Of a stretch of 64,000 nt of DNA, positions 28,611 to 53,734 are shown piece by piece; positions within the stretch are counted from its first letter, which is position 1; each line of letters begins with the position of its first letter. Under the pieces are notes generated by a model. That model searched no databases. It was not told where the DNA came from and saw nothing but the letters and a program-made list of their open reading frames with translations. The DNA is from Isoetes taiwanensis (Eukaryota; Streptophyta; Lycopodiopsida; Isoetales; Isoetaceae), in the NCBI GenBank assembly GCA_021234155.1, contig JAJEKV010000004.1, positions 8,000,109 to 8,064,108 on the forward strand, read 5' to 3'. The translations under genes were made by a program, and so were the position numbers.

Positions 28611-30145
28611 TGTGACGTCCCCTACTTCGCCTACGATGCTCCCATCGTATTGGAAGGCAGAGTTCATCCCCCTGGCAGCCAAGCTGACAGAGGCCGTCCA
28701 CCTTGACACCAATCCTTTAGGAAGGGGTCGATGAGGAAGAATGGACGGGTCATTTGTCCCGTCTTCCCTCGTGACCGTCCTAGCTGCGGAAGCGTAAATA
28801 AACATAAGCACATGACATCCAATACAATTAGATCCATCTCGAAGGATGGATGTACCATAGCATATATGTATAAGCTCATCAACATCATCATCATCATCAA
28901 ATGGGAGATCCTACCCAAGGCTCAGACTCCAGGGGTATGGACTGACAGCTTGGGTCTCCAGAAGCCATTGCAGACAGAACTCATGAGAGTAGATTGGGAT
29001 GGCATAGGAACATGGCTGTTGGGAAGTCCTCTCCATCCGTCTCTCCTGTGCACACTTTGCAGAATAGTTGAAGAGTCTTGGGACTGGACTGTAGCCTGTC
29101 GGGTGCATAGCCAAGGGGGCTATTAGTAGGTTTCATCCCCCCAACCCCGATGAGGCAGGAAGGGGATCACCCCCTCCAGAGGCATGCATGCCCATCTCAG
29201 GGGACTAGAGGGTCACTGCCCGTCTACGACGTGAACCTCATTAAGGGCGACGCATCACCCAAGAGGTGTCGAGCTCATGCCTTGCCCACATGCAGTGGCA
29301 AGCCATTAAGCCTAGCCCATTAAGATCCTCGGTAGGCTTTACACACCAGAGGGATCAATCTGTAATGGGACAAGTTCTCCTTATTCCACCGGTCTAGCCC
29401 CCCACTCACAACCAGGCGGGCTCTTATGCACAGGCCGCATTAATTGAGAATTAATGATGCTATCTAGATACATCTACTACTGAAGATTTCAGGGTCTCTA
29501 CCCCCCTTCCCAATACACAGGAGTGCGCATAGAATAGAACATCATCATCAAAGAACTAAAATACTGAATAATATCTAATCTATCTACCTAAACATACGTG
29601 GTTAGGTTCCTTAGTTAAGGCTTGTGATCTTAGGATCTATAAGGCCTCTAAGACTGATCTAACATGCTATCCCAGCTCATTGCTGGGCTAAAAGCCGGTA
29701 TTGCACAATAGAATCACATGTTACTTGATCCTTGGCTTGCTCCTGCTCCTCGAATCGCGTCCATGCCTTCACTTGGGTTGAAGGCAGCTGTTCCTGGAAG
29801 ATCTGTTGTGCAAAGGCGGCTTGGCGACGCCTGGCAATGTGAACTAGCAGCTTGGCTTGGCCGAAATGGCCCAAGGAAGCCAAAATGCGAAAATGGAAAA
29901 GGTTTAGGGTTTTCTCTTTTGTTCCATTTACATGACCTTTTAGGTTTAGGTTAAAAAGGACAAATGGGGTTTTGCCATGATGCAAAGGGGTTTAATTGTA
30001 AACGTTTATAGACATGTGCAACATACGAGGTTTTCCCCTAGGCGGAACCCTTTACCGTTCTCAAGTACTTGTCAAGGTGACATGTACACGTGGCATGGCA
30101 GTATAATATACGTATTCAGACTGTATATTATGCTGGAATGTCACA
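28611..30145 (-). repeat. Gypsy 3' LTR, 1535 bp
   Basis: Alignable along its full length to 37755-39254. It contains ~31 bp near 28660 absent from the other LTR. Confidence 0.92.
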
Positions 30146-30162
30146 ATCTCCCCACCTTGAAT
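30146..30162 (-). other. Gypsy polypurine tract
   Basis: The minus strand reads CAAGGTGGGGAGAT immediately before the 3' LTR. Confidence 0.65.
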
Positions 30163-30587
30163 TGATGTTGTCCTCAGCATCACGTGCCCCCCTCCTTGGA
30201 AACCTGCATGATCCCTGCAACACATTCCATGCATGCAATTTTATAACAATTGCCCAAGGTAATTTCTAAGTTTAAATTTTTATAATCACATCACTTGTTC
30301 TATAACATACTATGGTAAGGTGTCTCTCAACCCTTACATTATCATTTAATATTCATAAAATTTTATAATTTGCACAATTATCATTAACCCAGTTTTCAAA
30401 ATTCTATAATTTAAGGTCCATTTGGTCTCCTTACAACACATTATGACAAAACATGTGTTGCAAGTCTTCGCAATGCAACCCTCTTGCCGCTATACACTCC
30501 TATTGGCTTGCAGGTCCAACACTACGTTAGTAGTCATTTATTTATTGTAAAGTTGGTTATTAGGGAACCACCCATACACTTAATTAA

Positions 30588-31113
30588 CTATATGGATGCA
30601 AGAATAATTTCCCGGCGTAGGAAGATGATGTTTCTTCCATCTTGGCCGTGGAGACAGTGCCTTTCATACCTAAGATGATCACTCATGTGGTACTGCTTCT
30701 CCAAATCTGATTGTAGTACCCACGTAGCATCTTCCACATGCAAGTGCATCCATTTCACTAGGTATTGGAGAAATTGGGATCTTCTTGTTTTCTTGTAGGA
30801 CCTGTCAAAAAGAACCTCTGGGACGATCTCGAGTTGGTCATCTGTCATTTCTAGTAACTATGTTGTCTCCAATACTTCCTCTGGATTAGGAGTGTGCCTC
30901 TTCAAGAGACTTACATGGAAGACCCTATGGATTTTGAGATATGCTGGTAGGCCCAACTTGTAGGATTGGTTACCTATTCTTTTGGTTATCCTGAACGGCC
31001 CAACCCATCTTGGAGCAAGCTTCTTGCAATTGCCGATGCGGAGCTTCCCTTGCTTGACTTTGATCTTCCGCCACACATTGTCCCCTACTTAGAACTCTCT
31101 TACTGTTCTGTGC
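30588..31113 (-). pseudogene. Gypsy integrase C-terminus and chromodomain
   Basis: ELAPRW-type GPY/F module (KKLAPRWVGPFRITKRIGNQ) is followed by HRVFHVSLLKRH and, after a frame break, a chromodomain PEVLFDRSYKK...YLVKWMHLHVEDATW. The chromodomain directs chromoviral integration by binding modified histones. This is notable because the same element encodes a histone-like protein. Confidence 0.85.
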
Positions 31114-31956
31114 TTATCGGCTACACTCTTCTGCCGGCTTCTTGCTGCTAGAAGATATCCGCTCACTTCTTCCACCAATTGTTGCATGTCGGCTAGCATC
31201 TGTTGGGATACTTATACCTTGGACACGAGATTGTGCCAAGTGTCTGGGGTCATAGCCGTAGTTGATCATAAACGGCGACATTTGAAACAACTCCTGCTTG
31301 ATGCTATTGTATGCAAACTCCACCAAGTGAATAAAATCGTCCCACTTTGATTGCTTGTTCCAGACGTAATTCCTTAACATATCTTCAAGTATCCGATTCG
31401 TACACTCCGTCTGCCCATCAGTCTGAGGATGATATGCCATGCTCATCGACGGCTTCATCTTGATGGTGGTGAAGAGATCTTGCCAAAATGCACTCATGAA
31501 CTTCGAATCTCTATCAGAGATTATCTCCCTTGGCATCTCGTGGAGTCGAAAGATTTCCTTTGTGAACAACACGGCGGTATCCAACGCCGTATCCATGGTC
31601 TTGCATGGCACAAAATGCGCTATTTTTGACAACTTGTCGACTACTACCATTAAGGCGTCCTTGCCCCTTATGGTTCTTGGGAGCCCTGTTATGAAGTCCA
31701 TGCTTATTATTTCCCATTTGGCATTTGGCAATGGCAATGGCTCCAACACTCCTGGAATTCGAAGCTGCTCTGCCTTCATCTGCTGACATAGCTGATATTC
31801 TCGAATGTACTTGGCTATCTGCTTCTTCATGCCGGGCCAATAGTAGCTACTTCTTATCTTGAAGTAGGTTTTCATGAAACCTGCATGGCCGGCTATTGGG
31901 CTATTGTCAGTATCATGGAGTATTAACTTCCAAGATTTTAGATGACTCTGGGACAC
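31114..31956 (-). pseudogene. Gypsy integrase core
   Basis: An open frame of about 280 residues. Zn-binding H-H-C-C region near the start (DNSPIAGHAGFMKTYFKIRS, then CQQM where the last Cys is lost). The DDE core has D in SMDFITGLP, D in ISDRDSKF and E in HPQTDGQTECTNRILEDML. It lost its start to RT-RNase H by a frame break and runs into a different frame at the 3' side. Confidence 0.88.
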
Positions 31957-32725
31957 ACAATTTGTTCTTATGGTACAATTGGTTGCCTTTCTTCTTAAAA
32001 TGCTTGAAGGTTTCCCTCTCTTTGTTCGTTCTTGCCTCCTTAGAAAGGCTTGCCCATGCTTCCTTGAAGTCTCGGTCCGTTGGCAACATTTCTTCTATCT
32101 TCTTGCCAAACTCATTGGTGAGTGTTGATATGGCATTGTAATGGACTCTCGTCGTCAAGGAGTGACTTGAGAGTGCATCCGCAACCACGTTGAGCTTGCC
32201 TGGCTTGTACACGATGACAAAATTATACTCCTCCAGGAACTTCATCCATCTCCTTTGTCTCAAGTTGAGATGTGGTTGGGTGAAGACATACTATAGACTT
32301 TGATGGTCCATATCTAATTGAAACTTCCTTTCCAATAGATAATGCCTTCATATTCTTAAATCTATCACTACTGCTAGTAACTTCTGATCGTTGGTTGGGT
32401 AACGCGTTTCGGCGTCCTTCATCTTCCTTAAATCATACACTACCACCTTCTCCTCCTACATTAAGACCGCTCCTGTTGCAATCTTGCTAGCATCGGTTGC
32501 CACCAACTTATCTTTCTCTGGGTGGGCAATATTAAGACTGGGTCAGTCGTTAAAGCTTCCTTCAATGTCTCAAACGCTGCATGGCCCCTTCCTTTGCCAA
32601 TGACTCGCCCAATCTTTTATCTTCTCCGCTTTGATGAGATCCATTAGTGGAGCTGCTACTTTTGCAAAGTTCCTGACGAACTTTCTGTAATACCCTGCTA
32701 AGACGAGGAAGCTCCTCACTTCAAG
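31957..32725 (-). pseudogene. Gypsy RT remnant and RNase H
   Basis: The block starts abruptly with VRSFLVLAGYYRKFVRNFAK, the last part of RT. RNase H follows: VATDASKIATGAVLM, a stop, ETRYPTNDQKLLAVV, and WMKFLEEYNFVIVYKPGKLN VVADALS (written here with a break). Several stop codons are present. No YxDD block precedes it. Confidence 0.8.
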
Positions 32726-33663
32726 CCTTCAATGTACCCCTCTACTGCATATCTTTCGCTCAATTTTGGCACATAGAGCCTCAGCCTCATAAACTCTTTG
32801 GTGTACTTCTGCACTATCTTATTGCCCTGCTCCAACCTGTAAAATTATTGCATCATATGACACTTATGTTCCCTCGGCACGTAATGACGCTTAAATGCCT
32901 TGAAGAACTTCTTGAATCCTGCAGCTATCTCTGCTTAACCCATGGGCTTTGGCATAGCCTTTCCACCAAATTCTGGCTGCTCCCTTGAGGTTAGCTAGCG
33001 CTACCCTGCCCTTGTCCTTATCTTTCATACTATAGCATTCCCATATTCTCTCATTTCGTTCAACCAAGCCTCGGCTTCTATCCCTGACCTGTTGTCTCCT
33101 GAGAACTGTTCTAGCTTCTTGGCTTTCCACATATTGCTCAGTGCAGAGTCGACTTTCTTCTGGTAGTCGGCTTCAATCCTGCCCTTATCACGGTTGAGAC
33201 CCTCCCGGTGGTCCTACCGATCGTCGTCCTGCTCCTCAGATTCGGAGTCGAAGACGGAGCCGGAGTCGGAGTTGGAACTAGTGTTGGAGGAATCCGTGCT
33301 AGGGGATCTCCTTCTCCGGTTTCTCTTCTTTGCCTTGTCTATTCTGCCAGCAGGTGTTTAGGGTAGCTGGACATTCTGGTCTGGTGCAATTGCTGCCCTC
33401 TCTGCCAGCAAGGCTCTTATCTCGTGGGTATCCGATCTCATTTGAGATATCTTCTCTTCTGAGGTTGGTGCCTCGAACTCTTGGAATAGGTTCCTTGGTT
33501 GAAACTGTCTTGCAGGTGTTTGCTCCTCCTGAGGTTGTCGATCTTGTTCTACATTCCTGGTTGCTCTAGCTGCATAGACATTATATTGCACTCTTATGAT
33601 TAGCTTTTGTTTGTTATTGCATTGGTTGTTTGATGACATAGATGTAGGAACAAAATATATCAA
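32726..33663 (-). pseudogene. Gypsy gag
   Basis: Gag remains include an N-terminal Gln-rich part (33358-33663) and the conserved gag core WECYSMKDKDKGRVALANLK with GAARIWWKGY at 32891-33130, followed by RLYVPKLSERYAVEGYIEGL. At about 32725 gag changes directly into the end of RT. The zinc knuckle, protease and RT catalytic core are absent. Confidence 0.75.
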
Positions 33664-33913
33664 AGAATATTCATAATGCCATCAATTATATTCATAAGGT
33701 ACAATATTATTACAATCAATAATAGAGAGAAGAAAAAAAAAATAATCTATTCTTGGAATCTTCCATATGCCGGATTGTCTTCCAAGAACTTTTTCACTTG
33801 GGCTGTACCAACTGTGCATCCCAAGTTCCTAAGAATGTTGGTGGACATACCACCTTGAAGTGCCATTACCAGGTCTTCGACTCTTCTATTCGACGTATAG
33901 GCCGCAGTGACAG

Positions 33914-35340
33914 TCAATCTGCCCTGCCGTCTGTATGGGACTCAAAGTCGAAGACGCTCAAGGCTATTGTCCTCTTGACCAGGATGACATTGTCGGTGTT
34001 CGAAGGCATTCGAGCATGCCTACCAAATCCCGAGAGGGCAATAAGTATGAACACTCCTTCTTCTCCCTGTGGGCTGAACTGGCGGTGCATGACTGCAATC
34101 CTTCCGTCGGTGAGGAGTGGAAGGTAATACCTGAGGGCCTTGACGTGCCCTCCCTCTGCTGCCTCTTCTCCGGTTCTGATCCTGGCCCTGTGCCTTCCAG
34201 AGTACTCTTCCACCAATACCGCTGTCAAGTCCCTGTAGTCTGCAAACATGGACCTGGAAGAGGTCAAGTTGATGCCGCCTCTTTCTAGCCCGACTGGCGC
34301 TACTGATGAGGTGCTGGGCAGGAGCGCGCTTGTTGTCGTTCCCCTAATGCCCATCCATTCCTGGATGGCTATAAATTTCTCCTCTGAGGACAGTTTTTGT
34401 TGCGTCATCATCTGCCAAATACCGCTGTAAGCCTCAATGTCGGATGATGATAGCCCAGTGTAAGTGTGGGCTTCCCTGATGCTGATGGAAAAGTCTTGCA
34501 TCTCCTAGTCGATGAAGTCATCGAGATCGGGATGTTGGCGCAGGAGGTGCATGAGTTTGTCCAACCTGAGCCTCTGTTCTCTACATTCCGGGAGGTTCTT
34601 TATATCGTGCAACATCAGGTACTCTTGGCCTTCGATGATGACCGGGGTTAGACTGGTGATGCCTAACCCATGTGGAGGAGTTGTCCTTGTCACCCTCAAG
34701 CCTTCTTCGAAGCCCTGAAGGTCTTCTTCTACTTGTTGCCATTCTTGTATGGGGTCGACGTCGATAATGTCTTCAATGTCGTAACCTTGTCCTTCCTCTG
34801 TCTCCCCCTCTTGCTTTGACCCTTCATACTCCAGGAGCAACTGCTCTTCTGCTTCTGAGGCAAGGGATTCAATTTGGGCTCTATGGGACAAAAAGAAGGC
34901 TACAACAGCAGTGTAGGAAAAGTACCTCTTCTTGTTTATGGATATGGTCATGTAGTCGGGCATGCGAGCAACTCTATTTTCTAAATACTTGTCGATGTTT
35001 GGAACATCATTGAGTGCTACACGAAGGGTTGTTTTAGGCGTAAAGTATCTTATGCATAGGGGGAGTTCTACTAGTGAAGGGCCTATCTTGGCTTGGAACT
35101 ATGTCATGATGCCTTGGTAGAATAGTGTGGCATTTATAGTAGCATCCACATCGATCTTCTTCTGAAAAACAGTAAAGACCGAGTTGATGTCAGCCTCGGC
35201 CACATAAGCAGTGGCGTTGTACCATCGCCTGAATGATGAAGTGGCCAGAGTGCTGATGTAGATGGGGTTAAGAAACAAATGTATGAGCGTCTCTGTGAGC
35301 TAGAAAATTGCCTTGGAGTGAGGAGTGATAGTGTAGGATG
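33914..35340 (-). pseudogene. Unrecognised ORF2 of the Gypsy element, three nonsense codons
   Basis: One reading frame runs on the minus strand from about 35340 to 33914 (~470 residues), interrupted only by TAG at three places (near 35289, 35104 and 34502). Segments include FQKKIDVDATINATLFYQGI, VALNDVPNIDKYLENRVARM, an acidic stretch (EYEGSKQEGETEEGQGYDIE), TYTGLSSSDIEAYSGIWQMM and a C-terminal part with RARIRTGEEAAEGGHVKALR. No known domain, signal peptide or membrane segment is recognised. It is preceded by its own TATA box (35360-35367) and an inverted-repeat pair, like the H3 gene. The true start is unclear; no ATG is in frame before the second TAG. Confidence 0.65.
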
Positions 35341-35359
35341 CAATTGAGGGTGGTGGTCA

Positions 35360-35367
35360 TATTTATA
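35360..35367 (-). promoter_or_regulatory. TATA box of ORF2
   Basis: TATAAATA on the minus strand, just upstream of the ORF2 frame and matching the box before the H3-like gene. Confidence 0.6.
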
Positions 35368-35550
35368 GGCAGAACCCTGATTTGAGAAATTTTTTGGGTT
35401 TGGGAATGTCTATCATTTCAAGGTCCTATTAGGCATTTTATATGTAATCTAGGGTTATAAATGTCTAAAGTACTTCCTAAGGATCCTATTGCAACAAATT
35501 TCATCTGATTTGGAGGTAGCTGGGGTGAGTTAGGGCTATTTGACTTGGAC

Positions 35551-35622
35551 CACTCACACAGTGCGCGAGAGGCACTTTCAAAATTTTTTAAAAGGGTCCT
35601 GGCGCACTTTGTGAGAGGTGGG
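35551..35622. promoter_or_regulatory. Inverted-repeat motif, copy 1
   Basis: CTCACACAGTGCGC pairs with GCGCACTTTGTGAG (one mismatch) across a ~35-nt A/T-rich loop that itself contains TTTCAAAA..TTTTAAAA. It lies ~185 bp upstream of the ORF2 TATA box. Confidence 0.8.
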
Positions 35623-35753
35623 CTTCTGTTTGGGTCCTAGATGGCTCTAAAATTATGATATAAGGGCAGAATCCTACTTATCTCGCGGAATAAGCCAGGC
35701 TATGCCTTTAGTTTCTGGTTTTGGACAAGTCTAGGCATAGATCAGTGGCCAAA

Positions 35754-35826
35754 CACTCACACAGTGCGCGAGAGGCACTTTCCAAACTTTTGAAAAAGGC
35801 CCTGGCGCACTCTGTGAGGGGTGGGA
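35754..35826. promoter_or_regulatory. Inverted-repeat motif, copy 2
   Basis: CTCACACAGTGCGC pairs with GCGCACTCTGTGAG. It sits 203 bp from copy 1 and ~140 bp after the H3-like stop codon. Confidence 0.8.
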
Positions 35827-35965
35827 GTCTATTCAGTCACTTTTTAGCCAAATTAATTAATTCCAATTATACATGCCATTACTACAACCACATTAAATAC
35901 ATTATTATACCTTGCAATTTAATCAAAACAGTTTTTATATTTACAAAAAATTTATAAGTACATAT

Positions 35966-37096
35966 TTAGCAATCTTCTTTCTTTATGAATCTGGCCAGCT
36001 TCATATCCCTGGGCATGCACGTGACTCTTTTCGCATGGAGAGCATATGCTAGAGAGTCTTCAAAATGTTGTACCAGCTTATGCTCGGTTGCCTCCTGCAA
36101 TGCAAGCAACATATCATCTGTCACCCGCTTCTCCTTGTCGAATTCTTGCAAGATCTCACGTGTTAATCTTGCAAATGCAGTTCTTGGAACCAGAGGTTCG
36201 TAGCTCCTCTGGAAGTGCCGAATCTCCCGAGCAGCCTTTGCAAAGTACGAATCCGACTTCCTCTTCATCGGCTTCTTTGGTGGTACAGGTCTCTCTGTAT
36301 GCGGCTTCAAGGTGTTCTCTCTTGTTGGCCTTCCTCCTTCCACGTACGTCATCTTATTTGCTTTGTAGTACTTGGAGTATGCCTCATACATCTTCATGTA
36401 CTCCTTGTACTCCCTCTTCTTCTTGTTGTACTCCCGCTCATGCTTGAGTACGTATGATTCCAGTGCCGGCTTGACCTTCTTAGGATCTGTTGTTGCCTTT
36501 GGCCATGTTGGGTAGGGAGGTGGTGCTGCAGCTTCTTCATTCTCGTGATTGGAAGGTCTTGATCCTTCCGTTGGGCGGGGAATTCTCCACAACTCATCGT
36601 CCGACTCCGCTTTCGGTGAAGAAAAAGGTGGCCTATCGGGCTCTCGCTTCGTTATTGTAACCCCTTTGCTCGGTGTTGTCTTTGTTTTCCTCCGGGGTTT
36701 CTTTGGCAATTCTGGGTTCTTCCCTTTGGCCTCCTTTTGCCTCTTGCACTCCTCCTTCTCTGCAAGTCTCCTCCTTTTTCCTGCCTTCTTCATCTTGTCG
36801 ACTTTCCTTTATCGATGCGCCAACTTCTCTGTTGCCGCCCGGTCCTCCTCATTCTCCTCCTTCTTGTGCCCATTGCCATGATTCTCCAGGGTTTCTTGGT
36901 TATCAAGGTTCTGTTGTTGCTCTTCTTGGTCCTGATGATGCTCGTTATCCTCCTGAGTGTCCAGGTTTGGGTTTAGATTTTCTTCATCTCTGGCTCGCTC
37001 TCGAGCCTCCCTCGCCTTCTTTTCTGCTGCAAGAACTTGGACGCTTGTCGATCCGTCTGGTATAACCACTCGAGCAGTCTATTTGGTGCGGGCCAT
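35966..37096 (-). pseudogene. Retrotransposon-encoded histone H3-like protein
   Basis: A 377-codon frame from ATG at 37096 to the stop at 35966, broken by TAG at codon 6 and TAA at codon 96. Residues 1-9 read MARTK*TAR, the canonical H3 N-terminus (ARTKQTAR) with Gln5 turned into a stop. Residues ~10-95 are acidic and Gln/Asn-rich, ~97-140 are Lys/Arg-rich, and ~205-250 form a Tyr/Lys-rich helix (REYKEYMKMYEAYSKYYK). Residues 290-376 are an H3 histone fold: REIRHFQRSYEPLV, FARLTREILQEF, ALQEATEHKLVQHFED, ALHAKRVTCMPRDMKLAR. By hand it aligns to canonical H3 (REIRRYQ to the C-terminus, 87 residues) with no gap and about half identity. Loop 1 has canonical H3 length, so it is not CENH3-like. 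Context is the same strand as gag-pol, with its own TATA box. The family normally is ~136 residues, so this is H3 with a ~240-residue insertion after the tail. Confidence 0.9.
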
Positions 37097-37200
37097 GTTT
37101 TGAAATAAGTTGATCACCTTCCGAGCGCCTAGAAATCACTTTCTTGGTCGGAGAGCAGCAAGCTCGAGGAGTACGGAGAAAATGAAGAACCCTAAGGGTC

Positions 37201-37208
37201 TATTTATA
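37201..37208 (-). promoter_or_regulatory. TATA box of the H3-like gene
   Basis: TATAAATA on the minus strand, ~105 bp upstream of the ATG at 37096. It suggests transcription independent of the LTR. Confidence 0.65.
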
Positions 37209-37320
37209 GGTTTAGGAGTTTTAGAGTTTCGGCCTGCAATTTCATGTTATGCCATTATGTAAAACATTAGTGTTTGTTGGGTTAAGGCATTAGGTTCTTT
37301 TAGACAAAAAGTACTGCTAT

Positions 37321-37390
37321 CACTCACACAGTGCACGAGAAGCACTTTCAAAACTTTTGAAAAGGCCCTGGGCGCACTCTGTGAGGGGTT
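37321..37390. promoter_or_regulatory. Inverted-repeat motif, copy 3
   Basis: CTCACACAGTGCAC pairs with GCGCACTCTGTGAG. The loop contains TTCAAAACTTTTGAA, a perfect small palindrome. It lies 113 bp upstream of the H3 TATA box. Confidence 0.8.
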
Positions 37391-37532
37391 ATTCCCTTTT
37401 TGCTCTATTTTTTGTTTTCTAAATAGTTTCTTAGTGTTATAACATGCTTTCCTGGCTTAAATTCAAATTTTAAGCTACTCTGAGCTATCAGATTACTCTA
37501 ACATGCATTTTTCTAGGTCAAAATTGGTCAAA

Positions 37533-37603
37533 CACTCAAACAGTGCACGAGAAGCTTGTTCAAAAAATTTGAAAATTCCCTGGGCGCACGCTGTGAGGGG
37601 TTG
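37533..37603. promoter_or_regulatory. Inverted-repeat motif, copy 4
   Basis: CTCAAACAGTGCAC with GCGCACGCTGTGAG, the most diverged copy, 212 bp from copy 3. The short sequence before copies 2 and 4 is also similar (TCTAGG..ATTGGTCAAACACTC and TCTAGG..AGTGGCCAAACACTC). Confidence 0.75.
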
Positions 37604-37740
37604 CTCCCTAATGGCCAGAATTTTTCAGGGTTTCTACTATTTCTTTCCTGATTAACATTTCCTAATTTCCAAGGCTGAAGGTCTACTGTTAGTCCTATCA
37701 GGGAAACGGTCAGTGCCCCATCTTGGTCTACCAAGATTAT

Positions 37741-37753
37741 GGCTCTGATACCA
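37741..37753 (-). other. Gypsy primer-binding site
   Basis: The minus strand reads TGGTATCAGAGCC, one base inside the 5' LTR end, complementary to tRNA-iMet. Confidence 0.88.
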
Positions 37754-37754
37754 C

Positions 37755-39254
37755 TGTGACGTCCCCTACTTCGTCTACGATGCTCCCATCATATTGGAAG
37801 CCAAGCTGACAAAGGCCGTCCACCTGACAACAATCCTTTAAGCAAGGAATCGATGAGGAAGAATGGACGGGTCATTTGTCCCGTCTTCCCTCGGGACCGT
37901 CCTAGCTGTGGAAGCGTAAATAAACATAAGCACATGACATCCAATACAATTAGATCTACCTCGAGGATGTACCATAGCGTACATGTATAAGCTCATCAAT
38001 AACATCATCATCAAATGGGAGATCCTACACAAGGCTCAGACTCCAGGGGTATGGATTGACGGCTTAGGTCTCCAGAAGCCATTGCAGATAGAATTCATGA
38101 GAGTGGATTGGGCTGGCATAGGAACATGGCTGATAGAAAGTCCTCTCCATCCGCCCCTCATGTGCACACTTTGCAGAATAGGTTGAAGAGTCTTGGGATC
38201 GGACCGTAGCCTGCCGGGCGCATAGCCAAGGGGGCTACTAGTGGGTTTCATCTCCCCAATCCCGATGAGGCAAGAAGGGGATCACCCCCTCCAGAGGCAT
38301 GCATGCTCATCACAGGCGGCTAGAGGGCCACTGCCCGTCTACACTTGAACCTCATTGAAGGCGACACATCACCCAAGAGGTGTCAAGCTCATGCCGTGCC
38401 CGCACGCAATGGCAAGCCATTAAGCCTAGCCCGCTAAGATCCCCGGTAGGCTTTACACACCAGAGGGATCAATCTGTAATGAGACAAGTCCTCCTTAGTC
38501 CACTAGTCTAGCCCCGCCACTCACAACCAGACGGGCTCTTATGCACATGCCACATTAATTGGGAATTAATGAGGCTATCTAGATACATCTACTACTGAAG
38601 CTTTCAGGGTCTCTACTCCCTCTTCCCAATACACAGGAGTGCGCATAGAATAGAACATCATCATCAAAGAACTGAAATATTGAATAATATCTCATCTATC
38701 TACCTAAACATACATGGTTAGGTTCCTTAGTTAAGGCTTCTGATCTTAGGATCTATAAGGCCACTAAGACTGATCTAACATGCTATCCCAGCTTATTGCC
38801 AGGCTAAAAGTCGGCATTGCATAATAGAATCACAAGTTACCTGATCCCTGGCTTGCTCTTGCTCCTTGAATTGCGTCCATGCCTTCGCTTGGGTTGAAGG
38901 CAACTGTTCCTGGAACATCTGTTGTGCAAAGGCGGCTTGGTGACGCCTGGCAATGCGAACTAGCAGCTTGGCTTGGCCGAAATGGCCCAAGGAAGCCAAA
39001 ATGCGAAAATGGAAAAAGTTTTTCCTTTTGTTCCTTCTACATGACCTTTTAGGTTTAGGTTAAAAAGGACAAATGGGGTTTTGCCATGAGGCAAAGGGGT
39101 TTAATTGCATATGTTTATAGATATGTGCAACATACGAGGTTGCCCCCTAATCGCAAACCTTTACGATTCTCAAGTACTTGTCAAGGTGATATGTATACGT
39201 GGCATAGCAGTATAATATACGTATTCAGACCATATATTATGCTGGAACGTCATA
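37755..39254 (-). repeat. Gypsy 5' LTR, 1500 bp
   Basis: Pairs with 28611-30145. The terminal CA is mutated to TA at its outer end (GTCATA). Confidence 0.92.
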
Positions 39255-51655: not shown

Positions 51656-53734
51656 TTAACCATGTACTAACCTCTTAAGGAATCTGATCATGTCCTGCAG
51701 GTCATATAGTGTACCTGGAAAGCATTCCTCTTGCAGAGTATTTAGTACCATTTGTGAGAGCTTGACCTGATTAAAACCATTATTTGCAAACGTCTCAATC
51801 AAGTTATATATGTCCCCAGCTGCTGATAGAGCATCCGAATGTGCATATACGTATGGCATAACTTGGGAGATAATCACCTTAGAAGCCTGTTTGAAAGGTC
51901 TACAGCTGTGTGCCCATATGAACTTATTAACTGTAAATGGTAGCTTGCTTCTTTTATCATACCTACTCATGTGGAAAATACCCCTTCCCTGATCTGTTAC
52001 AGAAATTGAAAGGTTGAGGAAACTGCACTTACTTCCAAACCGAGAGTTATCCTTCGTGCTTGTTTGATACTTGGTTTCATCTTTGATTCCTAAGAAGTTC
52101 AGATTATATATTGTGTGTTCAGCACCAATGGTTAAAAACTCCATGACATTCCCACCATTTATGACATTAAGGTCATCAATATACCTCGCAGCGTTCTGGA
52201 ATCTATATATATCTGAATATTTACCAGCTTGAGCAAGTCCAAGAATAAATCTGAGTTCAAACCATGCCAAATATATGTTGCACCATGCTGGGCTACTGGA
52301 GAAGCCCATCGGTATTCCCTTGGTTTGCCTCCAGATGCTATCACCCATTTGGATAAAACAATTACTGAGGAGCCAGGCATTCATCTTTTTAAATAAGTCC
52401 CTAGGGATTAGTTTCCAACTCACATTTTCTTTATCCTTGGACGATCTTACCCATTTAACGTTGATGCCATCTTTCTTGTTTTTGACCAGCAGGTCAAAAA
52501 GTCTGTTTTTCTCCATTTGGAATTCCCAAATAATATCCGCAGTTTCATTGAGAATTTCAATTATTCCTTCCTCTCCATAGAGTGGTATATTCTCGTAGCA
52601 TTTCATGATGTCTGCAGCAAAGACATCATGTACTCTTTTTGGCATATTCAAGACCACATCATAAGCTGATTTGATCATCCAGCACGCATTGATCTTTTTT
52701 ACACTCCATAATCTGTATTTGGCTGTCATGTGAAAGCATATATCTGGCCATACCCTGATGAAATCATTCAAAATAGCTGTGATTAAACTTGCTATTTCCA
52801 TATACATTGTGTTATGCGCATTCGTCAGCCAACGGTACTCACCCTTGTGTTCCTTGTATATGGCCATTAAATATGGCAAAGTTTTATTCTCTATCTGTAT
52901 ATCCCCAACAAGTTCGGTAATGTCCTGTGCACACTGATTCTTTACGTTTTCTGGAGAAAAGTTAACTTTTTCAAAGTCGTCACTCATTAGTCTTTTCAAT
53001 GCCATGTCAAGAATGTGTCTTGGACATATGAAAACAGCATTATTTGCTGCCTTGTCCAGGCCAGCTACATACAGGTTTTTATTTAGCCAACAGATGTTTT
53101 TTGCCACACCTGGGTCCTGCCAGAGGAATCTCTTTGTCTGTAGATTATTTTTGAGGTCAATAACCTCAGTCCTGGCAATTGTCACTAGCATGGTGGTGAT
53201 ATTCTTGATATCCAGATCATTGAGATCAAGCAGGTCATATTTATGTGCCGCAAAGAATTTTCCACACATCTTTTCAAATTCATATGTGAATTCCTGGAGG
53301 TTTAAAGCCTGGTCTGGTATATGGTTAAGGCCATATTCAAATGCCATTCTGAGTTTTGGACAATGAATAATGTCCAGATTCGTTGTTCTGATGTGGCCAA
53401 TCCTGTGGTCTATAAATTTTGCCAGATTAGGATTATTGCATGGGCACTTGTTGGCATTTCCATTGGCGAATACCATAAAGGGCTTATACACTTTATCCCT
53501 TAGCTGCTGTATGTACTTCCATGCAAAAATGGTTCTGTCCACAATGTCAGTTCCTTTGTCTTGTAATACCTCGTACATAACTGTATGGAAGATTCTTCTG
53601 GTATTAAATCCATCCAAAGCTTTGGATAAAAATTTCATGTGCACAATCTGTGCGTCCATCTCCCTTGTTTTGCTACTTAGATGCCTTGTCTTATTAATGT
53701 CCTTAACTATCGATCTGGTCACCATATTCGTAAC
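51656..53734 (-). CDS. Penelope-like reverse transcriptase without visible endonuclease
   Basis: A single open exon of 689 residues from the ATG at 53725. The exon starts at an AG acceptor at 53735-53736. N-terminal CPCNNPNLAKFIDHRIGHIR-TTNLDII block at 94-120, DKAANNAVFICPR near 224-236, RT block 1-2 YKEHKGEYRWLTNAHNT (290-306), block A VFAADIMKCYENIPL (368-382), block B QTKGIPMGFSSSPAWCNIYL (467-486), catalytic block C ARYIDDLNVI (513-522), and FLGIKDE/KCSFLNLSI (544-574). Y-x-N-I-P in block A and K-x-H-K with R-x-L are typical of Penelope-like and rvt-type RTs rather than LTR or LINE RTs. No GIY-YIG endonuclease is seen. All catalytic Asp are present and no stop occurs, unlike every other RT in this window. 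The C-terminus could instead splice out at AG|GTTAGT near 51671. Confidence 0.75.
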   Translation of the reverse strand, partial: VTNMVTRSIVKDINKTRHLSSKTREMDAQIVHMKFLSKALDGFNTRRIFHTVMYEVLQDKGTDIVDRTIFAWKYIQQLRDKVYKPFMVFANGNANKCPCNNPNLAKFIDHRIGHIRTTNLDIIHCPKLRMAFEYGLNHIPDQALNLQEFTYEFEKMCGKFFAAHKYDLLDLNDLDIKNITTMLVTIARTEVIDLKNNLQTKRFLWQDPGVAKNICWLNKNLYVAGLDKAANNAVFICPRHILDMALKRLMSDDFEKVNFSPENVKNQCAQDITELVGDIQIENKTLPYLMAIYKEHKGEYRWLTNAHNTMYMEIASLITAILNDFIRVWPDICFHMTAKYRLWSVKKINACWMIKSAYDVVLNMPKRVHDVFAADIMKCYENIPLYGEEGIIEILNETADIIWEFQMEKNRLFDLLVKNKKDGINVKWVRSSKDKENVSWKLIPRDLFKKMNAWLLSNCFIQMGDSIWRQTKGIPMGFSSSPAWCNIYLAWFELRFILGLAQAGKYSDIYRFQNAARYIDDLNVINGGNVMEFLTIGAEHTIYNLNFLGIKDETKYQTSTKDNSRFGSKCSFLNLSISVTDQGRGIFHMSRYDKRSKLPFTVNKFIWAHSCRPFKQASKVIISQVMPYVYAHSDALSAAGDIYNLIETFANNGFNQVKLSQMVLNTLQEECFPGTLYDLQDMIRFLKRLVHG

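Follow-up and report, generated by a model that had tools for sequence, protein, structure and literature searches.

The genome of Isoetes taiwanensis harbors a chromodomain-bearing lineage of Ty3/gypsy retrotransposons that, as we show here, captured a histone H3 and kept it as a gene of the element just downstream of the 5' LTR. That this H3 is borne by the element and maintained by selection is, in our judgment, close to certain. What it does for the element is a matter of weighing several readings, among which we tentatively prefer interference with host silencing through an H3 that lacks lysine 9.

Architecture of the element and its histone frame

The window, by which we mean the whole 64,000-nucleotide stretch of DNA analyzed (contig JAJEKV010000004.1, positions 8,000,109 to 8,064,108), contains one such element on its minus strand at 28611-39252 (Table 1), with the H3 ORF placed between the 5' LTR with its primer site and gag. 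Paired LTRs, a primer-binding site TGGTATCAGAGCC that we take to match the initiator Met tRNA, gag and reverse transcriptase (RT) before the integrase (as seen in family 2, the sister kind of element described below) and a chromodomain after it are the features of a Ty3/gypsy chromovirus; the chassis is that of an ordinary chromovirus, and what is new is the histone with its tail. The two LTRs are 91.8% identical over 1,495 aligned bases (K2P 0.088), and the reference for the gag remnant was the gag of a family-2 element, which matches PF19259/PF03732. The original prediction, made from the letters alone, had placed the frame inside the LTRs on the gag-pol strand, in agreement with the strand that it shares with integrase and chromodomain, and had called this copy decayed, as borne out by two stop codons and a largely deleted RT.

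Two hairpins and a TATAAATA motif precede the H3 ORF, and two further hairpins and a second TATAAATA precede the next ORF; among the 30 copies of the same kind compared below, the motif lies at a like place before H3 in 21/30 and before the next ORF in 19/30. This layout suggests that H3 and the next ORF may each have a transcript of their own, arising from hairpin-TATAAATA modules. Elsewhere in the window, a 689-aa open frame on the minus strand (51656-53725) has a weak RT match (PF00078, E 0.00023, below the cut-off) and may belong to a different retroelement.

Table 1. Features of the H3-bearing element, in window coordinates
Feature	Coordinates	Strand	Remarks
5' LTR (TG...CA)	37755..39252	-	direct repeat with 28611-30143
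Primer-binding site TGGTATCAGAGCC	37741..37753	-	one base past 5' LTR; from sequence
Hairpin 1, upstream of H3 ORF	37530..37610	-	-20.7 kcal/mol; repeat D3
Hairpin 2, upstream of H3 ORF	37318..37398	-	-34.2 kcal/mol
TATAAATA, putative internal promoter	37201..37208	-	about 105 nt before H3 start codon
ORF1, histone H3 frame	35966..37096	-	two internal stops in window copy
H3 tail MARTK*TAR; residue 9 Val	37070..37096	-	
H3 histone fold, 94 codons	35969..36250	-	PF00125 3.1e-20; PDB H3 1.9e-19; selection
Hairpin 3, 3' of H3 stop	35750..35825	-	-37.2 kcal/mol
Hairpin 4	35548..35622	-	-34.6 kcal/mol
Second TATAAATA, putative internal promoter before next ORF	35360..35367	-	
Extra-ORF remains between H3 and gag	33914..34963 (34505-34963, 33914-34501)	-	no Pfam domain
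gag remnant	32710..33350	-	tblastx to family-2 element, 71% and 49% aa in two main pieces
pol remnant	31957..32700	-	RT mostly deleted; RNase H part remains
Integrase	31114..31956	-	PF17921 1e-15; PF00665 6.8e-9
Chromodomain, after integrase	30588..30848	-	PF00385 6.6e-8
3' LTR	28611..30143	-	direct repeat with 37755-39252

The minus-strand frame 37096-35966 comprises 376 codons and a stop, is interrupted by two in-frame stops, and reads MARTK*TARVV, followed by some 270 residues, most of them charged, and by an H3 fold that runs to the stop. Pfam assigns its C-terminal part to the core histones (PF00125, E 3.1e-20, 73 bits where the cut-off is 26.4), and the H3 chains of solved structures match it at 1.9e-19. 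An AlphaFold model of the 275-aa stop-free part, computed from a 27-row alignment of that part with database histones, reached block means above 90 at residues 201-270 (overall mean 68.6), and the matches that Foldseek listed for it were nucleosomal H3, superposed at 1.2-1.3 A in alignments of 85-91 columns and at 7-15 A in longer ones extending beyond the fold. The frame is confirmed as a genuine H3. The C-terminal fold had been recognized in the original prediction and scores as such in the profile search; the N-terminal MARTK*TAR, which is the H3 tail with one codon turned into a stop, had been overlooked.

Two families of H3-bearing elements and the selection on them

We call the window's kind of element family 1 and a sister kind family 2; candidate numbers throughout are first-look counts, not copy numbers. 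The original prediction hinged on the H3 frame not being single-copy in the genome, and a query with the 275-aa part yielded 10,922 first-look candidates, 140 of which were scored as matches, with identities as low as 58%. Among the best 30 of these 140, which include the window's own locus and were oriented by H3, 16 lack a stop, an LTR end lies upstream in 19/30, the tail is found in 19/30, the linker in 27/30 and the next ORF in 14/30. A primer-site motif lies within at most a few bases of an LTR end in 14/30, relatives of window 34505-34963 follow H3 in 14/30, and an LTR end or primer site occurs together with linker or next ORF in 17/30. Misses within the 30 are an unsorted mixture of truncated copies, foreign flanks or relatives too distant for BLAST, and the loci are not wholly independent, with L014/L018 and L019/L022 forming near-identical pairs.

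Family 2 came to light with a canonical H3 query, whose 150 scored matches (of 9,022 candidates) comprise 15 host genes at 96-98% identity and 135 other loci at 71-86%, 6 of the 135 with an internal stop. All 15 loci fetched from these 135 (L046-L060) end in an H3 fold, which in 8/15 belongs to a frame of 431-567 aa with a shared N-terminal domain beginning MAITKSAPDP or similar; in the frames read, another domain takes the place of an ARTKQTAR tail. Two longer stretches (L061 and L062, 9.9 kb each) carry, all on the same strand, ORF1-H3, ORF2, an additional ORF and pol, and in L061 Pfam recognizes gag (PF19259/PF03732), RT (PF00078, 4.8e-39) and integrase (PF17921). No direct repeat was found inside L061 or L062 alone; with its neighboring stretches, L061 has a primer site and a 610-base LTR match between two ends at 96.6%, a length bounded by the end of the fetched stretch. 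Its gag, pol, integrase and chromodomain regions match those of the window element, the longer tblastx pieces on the same strand being 39-76% identical in amino acids (the chromodomain region at 73% over 140 residues), and since they do, the two families probably belong to one lineage. ORF2 and ORF3 of L061 gave no tblastx match to the window element.

A sample blind to H3 was obtained through ORF2. The 338-aa query (L061:5489-6505, minus strand) gave 119 scored matches of 6,227 candidates in the genome, from which 20 copies were taken about evenly down the ranking and 420 bases upstream were read. An H3 match lies about 200 nt upstream in 20/20, as an unbroken piece of 98-99 residues in 10 (one with a stop) and split, gapped or shortened in the other 10. 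ORF2 itself had no homologue among 5.8 billion proteins at E 0.001, no histone or other convincing match in Pfam or PDB, and one weak NCBIfam match far below its cut-off, while H3 gene models dominated the result of a protein search with family-2 ORF1 (23-42% query cover among the 120 matches listed).

With changes assigned by parsimony on nucleotide trees, the nonsynonymous/synonymous ratio on internal branches was 0.082 in family 1 (27 copies; terminal branches 0.25), 0.025 in family 2 (33 copies; 0.10) and 0.060 in 18 H3-blind family-2 copies (0.135). Every stop, eight in family 1 and one in family 2, fell on a terminal branch. Such a pattern is expected if the elements are under selection while they move and decay after insertion. 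Nei-Gojobori pairwise medians were 0.068 for family 1 (27/30 loci, after removal of three that were short or gapped, with 285 of 351 pairs usable), 0.023 for family 2 (15 loci picked by H3 score, hence biased low) and 0.012 for host H3 (n=15). Pooled pN/pS was 0.044 for host H3, 0.042 for family 2 picked by H3 score, 0.078 for H3-blind family 2 (18/20 copies, two gapped ones dropped and broken ones represented by their first ungapped piece) and 0.128 for family 1. Apart from the H3-blind copies, these samples lean toward high-ranking matches. Codon positions 1+2 of family 1 differ at 0.096 and position 3 at 0.376; the linker differs at 0.216 (23 loci), a low estimate covering the BLAST-aligned part only.

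LTR elements can carry gene pieces, and the window copy has two stops, as a functionless piece of a host gene carried along, or a one-off insertion, might. Such a passenger is scarcely credible for a multi-copy frame at the same place in the element with internal-branch ratios of 0.025-0.08 and stops on terminal branches only, and we reject it on copy number and selection. Capture and retention of an H3 gene by an ancestral element, as the original prediction proposed, instead fits the shared position, the many stop-free copies and the purifying selection on internal branches; the evidence that it had named as supporting element-borne function (several copies with the ORF at the same place, some stop-free, and a ratio below 1) was found in 17/30 loci, in 16/30 and, for internal branches, at 0.082. 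Hardly more tenable is a family of host H3 variant genes that spread in some other way, the neighboring elements being coincidental. Host H3 genes do exist (15), but scattered copies of the frame come with an LTR end, primer site, hairpins and next ORF at comparable spacing, and neither H4 (69 candidates, 43 matches, 16 full-length genes) nor H2A (106 candidates, 78 matches, most over part of the query) has multiplied alongside; H3 is amplified, H4 and H2A are not.

The two families differ in their distance from the host. The three family-2 folds examined share 86-89% identity with host H3, beside which the 15 family-2 copies cluster as one group (support 1.0). In family 1, whose branch is long, the four folds examined have an identity of 49.5-51.6% to host H3 and are about equally distant from family 2. 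These kinships agree with two captures as well as with a single one followed by rapid divergence of family 1. The H3-H3' contact residues, which we number on the assumption that H3 numbering applies, are nearly invariant in family 1 (His113 26/27, Asp123 25/27, Leu126 27/27, Ile130 26/26). At residues 87-90, presumably the H3 chaperone site in the same numbering, 11/15 host genes have SAVL, the 15 family-2 copies FAIL and most family-1 copies DMLL. We rejected capture of a CENH3, as loop 1 is not longer, having H3 length in the alignment of both families, and no closer kinship to CENH3 is seen; the source of family 1, however, whose four folds are 46.8-50.0% identical to Nyssa CENH3, nearly as to host H3, and whose branch is long, may be either. 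The 150 scored matches to Nyssa CENH3 (of 7,902 candidates) are element copies and host H3s; one at C1050:7232534 (query 22-153, in a 180-aa open frame) could be the host CENH3 gene.

The H3 tail, residue 9 and possible functions

Tails were read in 50 family-1 loci, the 30 best and 20 further hits of the same list with 430 bases upstream of each of the 20, and accepted at 6 or more of 9 matches to MARTKQTAR, as found in 42/50. Residues 1-8 are conserved partly through this criterion; residue 9 is free of it. There, valine (14), methionine (14) and isoleucine (11) make up 39/42 tails, with lysine in 2 (L089 and L094) and alanine in 1, while K4 is present in 42/42 and residue 10 is valine in 39 of 42. 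An ARTKQTARK tail with Lys9, as in histone H3, thus characterizes neither family 1 (2/42) nor the tailless family 2. Constraint on codons 9-15 as a whole is weak (pN/pS 0.56; codons 1-8, 0.17), and a single step separates M, V and I from one another, so that descent alone could be the source of the set at residue 9. Among database H3-like proteins, P0005, P0007, P0008 and P0013 (jgi or ena) have the tails MAKTKQTARVV or MAKIKQTARVV, also without Lys9.

Our preferred reading, which we hold as quite possible though somewhat short of probable, is an anti-silencing mechanism through the K9-less H3 of the element. Since the H3 fold and the H3-H3' contact residues are kept, the element H3 would most likely pair with host H4 and enter nucleosomes or the H3 chaperone pathway; for family 1, entry into nucleosomes is less certain because its identity to host H3 over the fold is only about 50%. 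With Lys9 replaced by Met, Val or Ile in family 1, and with another domain in place of the tail in family 2, it would be unable to take H3K9 methylation, and chromatin of the element kept out of that modification would be a gain for the element. Where residue 9 is Met, the element H3 may also sequester the H3K9 methyltransferase, by analogy with H3K9M in fission yeast. This K9 reading is limited by two family-1 tails with K9, by a family 2 without the tail, and by the 1,051 K9-bearing tail sites described below.

The same H3 could instead serve integration, by riding H3 chaperones and importins into the nucleus or by marking nucleosomes for the machinery of the element. Selection has kept the fold, and the element itself has a chromodomain, which according to PMC6317226 is assumed to give chromoviruses targeting preferences; the same work has type I chromodomains binding H3K9, the very residue that is replaced by M, V or I in 39/42 family-1 tails, and we consider this targeting role unlikely. 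We give a small chance to a structural role outside nucleosomes, with the H3 fold as a dimerizing nucleic-acid-binding module in the particle or on cDNA and, in family 2, as a fusion partner. The placement of the H3 ORF upstream of further ORFs and gag speaks for it, as does the joining of H3 and another domain in one family-2 ORF, open over 431-567 aa in 8/15 loci. However, the 86-89% identity of three family-2 copies to host H3 and a constraint on family 2 close to that of histones argue for partners in the host, H4 or chaperones for example, and family 1 keeps a tail that would be needless for packaging.

The tail also occurs well beyond family 1. The exact pattern MARTKQTAR followed by an I, M, L, V or F codon has 753 sites genome-wide, and that followed by a Lys codon 1,051, with 0 in reversed controls; the Lys sites far outnumber the 15 full-length host H3 genes found. 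Downstream sequence was read for those Lys sites that belong to the 15 host genes and to the family-1 loci L089 and L094. Because Lys sites stand at 1,051 against 753 hydrophobic ones, K9 loss is not a rule for all tail-bearing repeats, and we ruled it out as a universal one. The first 100 of the 753 hydrophobic sites show 44 different encodings, and 10 sites picked among these 100 for different encodings were fetched. We rejected the idea that such sites are all family-1 H3, the 10 being other frames, one of them a decayed H3: L115 (C35:87294-88593), whose tail encoding is the commonest (27 of 100 sites), continues into H3-like pieces in more than one frame and has a 481-aa H3-bearing open frame about 1.9 kb upstream on the same strand. 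L116, L119, L120 and L124 carry MARTKQTAR and V, M or I on another protein, L121-L123 carry the tail on charged frames starting MARTKQTARV(P/S/H)RGD, and L117 and L118 on other frames with stops. The L120 type (C162:84157-84606) is a repeat family of 1,312 candidates, many with open frames, and the L123 type one of 2,192, with open frames up to 489 aa among the matches listed. The first 150 aa of L120, L121 and L123 gave neither a histone nor any other convincing match in Pfam, and L120 no convincing match by sequence in PDB. The original prediction was right about an H3-bearing element, named targeting, mimicry and packaging as putative functions, and missed the replacement of K9, the existence of a second, better conserved family with H3, and the presence of the tail in further repeats.

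These repeats are a ground for viewing the tail as a decoy, which on any protein would occupy readers or writers of H3K4 or of the tail, the fold being secondary. The numbers of L120-type and L123-type candidates, K4 in 42/42 family-1 tails and the 44 encodings in 100 sites point the same way. In family 2, however, a strongly kept fold without such a tail implies that there the fold matters by itself, and beyond their first 150 aa the frames of L120 and L123 might include a histone fold; we find the decoy rather improbable as an account of the element H3. Returning to the anti-silencing reading, we also propose, as a more speculative and on balance doubtful extension, that the element H3s and the other repeat-borne tail proteins are natural "oncohistones", in which Lys9 has become Met, Val, Ile or Leu with K4 kept, and which would resist and block H3K9 methylation. 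If true, mobile elements would have in histone-tail mimicry a general means of countering silencing, present in several repeat families of a single genome. The K9 idea is directly testable with peptides and would make these natural H3 variants shaped by conflict over silencing. With near host-like selection acting on a family whose first-look candidates number in the thousands, the implication would be that nucleosomes themselves can be altered by mobile elements.

Comparison with known systems

Searches of open-access PubMed Central turned up no retroelement encoding a core histone, and the accessible text of a review of viral histones (PMC9145170) contains neither "retrotransposon" nor "retrovir". 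Plant Ty3/gypsy chromoviruses (PMC6317226) and the present element share LTRs, primer site, gag, RT, RNase H, integrase and a chromodomain after the integrase; the latter differs in the region from 5' LTR to gag, which holds the H3 ORF, other extra ORFs and recurring hairpin-TATA modules. That work describes chromoviruses with extra ORFs and eight polyprotein domains, and the part consulted has "histone" once, as the target of the chromodomain.

For the tail, the nearest known form is H3K9M, which traps Clr4 in fission yeast and as a peptide (ARTKQTARM...) binds G9a with SAM, in a solved structure (PMC5030085). The shared feature, ARTKQTAR followed by Met at residue 9, is present in 14/42 family-1 tails. 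H3K9M is an introduced mutation, whereas family 1 is natural, also has Val or Ile, and is a long, divergent H3 with a putative effect; the main text of that study, as far as accessible, reports trapping for Met and stronger binding for norleucine, and is without K9V, K9I or "isoleucine". Proteins of viruses and mobile elements that act against plant transcriptional silencing include geminivirus TrAP, which inhibits SUVH4/KYP to escape silencing (PMC4606454), and VANC of VANDAL elements, anti-silencing proteins encoded by plant elements (PMC5735166, PMC10398659). Neither is a histone, and the anti-silencing effect of the present element is putative.

Single viral H3s are known from xenomavirus, the phycodnavirus DSLPV1 and sylvanvirus (PMC9145170). 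Each is one H3, with a fold 73-87% identical to that of the host and in some cases an extended tail; in the present genome H3 is amplified and H4 and H2A are not, and the element H3 is of host type in family 2 and divergent in family 1. A search of viral contigs with peptide patterns gave no match. Those H3s reside in DNA viruses, whereas ours is carried by a retroelement, has first-look candidates in the thousands and, in family 1, bears a tail with K9 replaced. An m6A RNA demethylase domain is carried by Ty3/gypsy elements of orchids (PMC9289625), which are likewise LTR elements with a gained and kept domain; in the element described here that domain is a histone.
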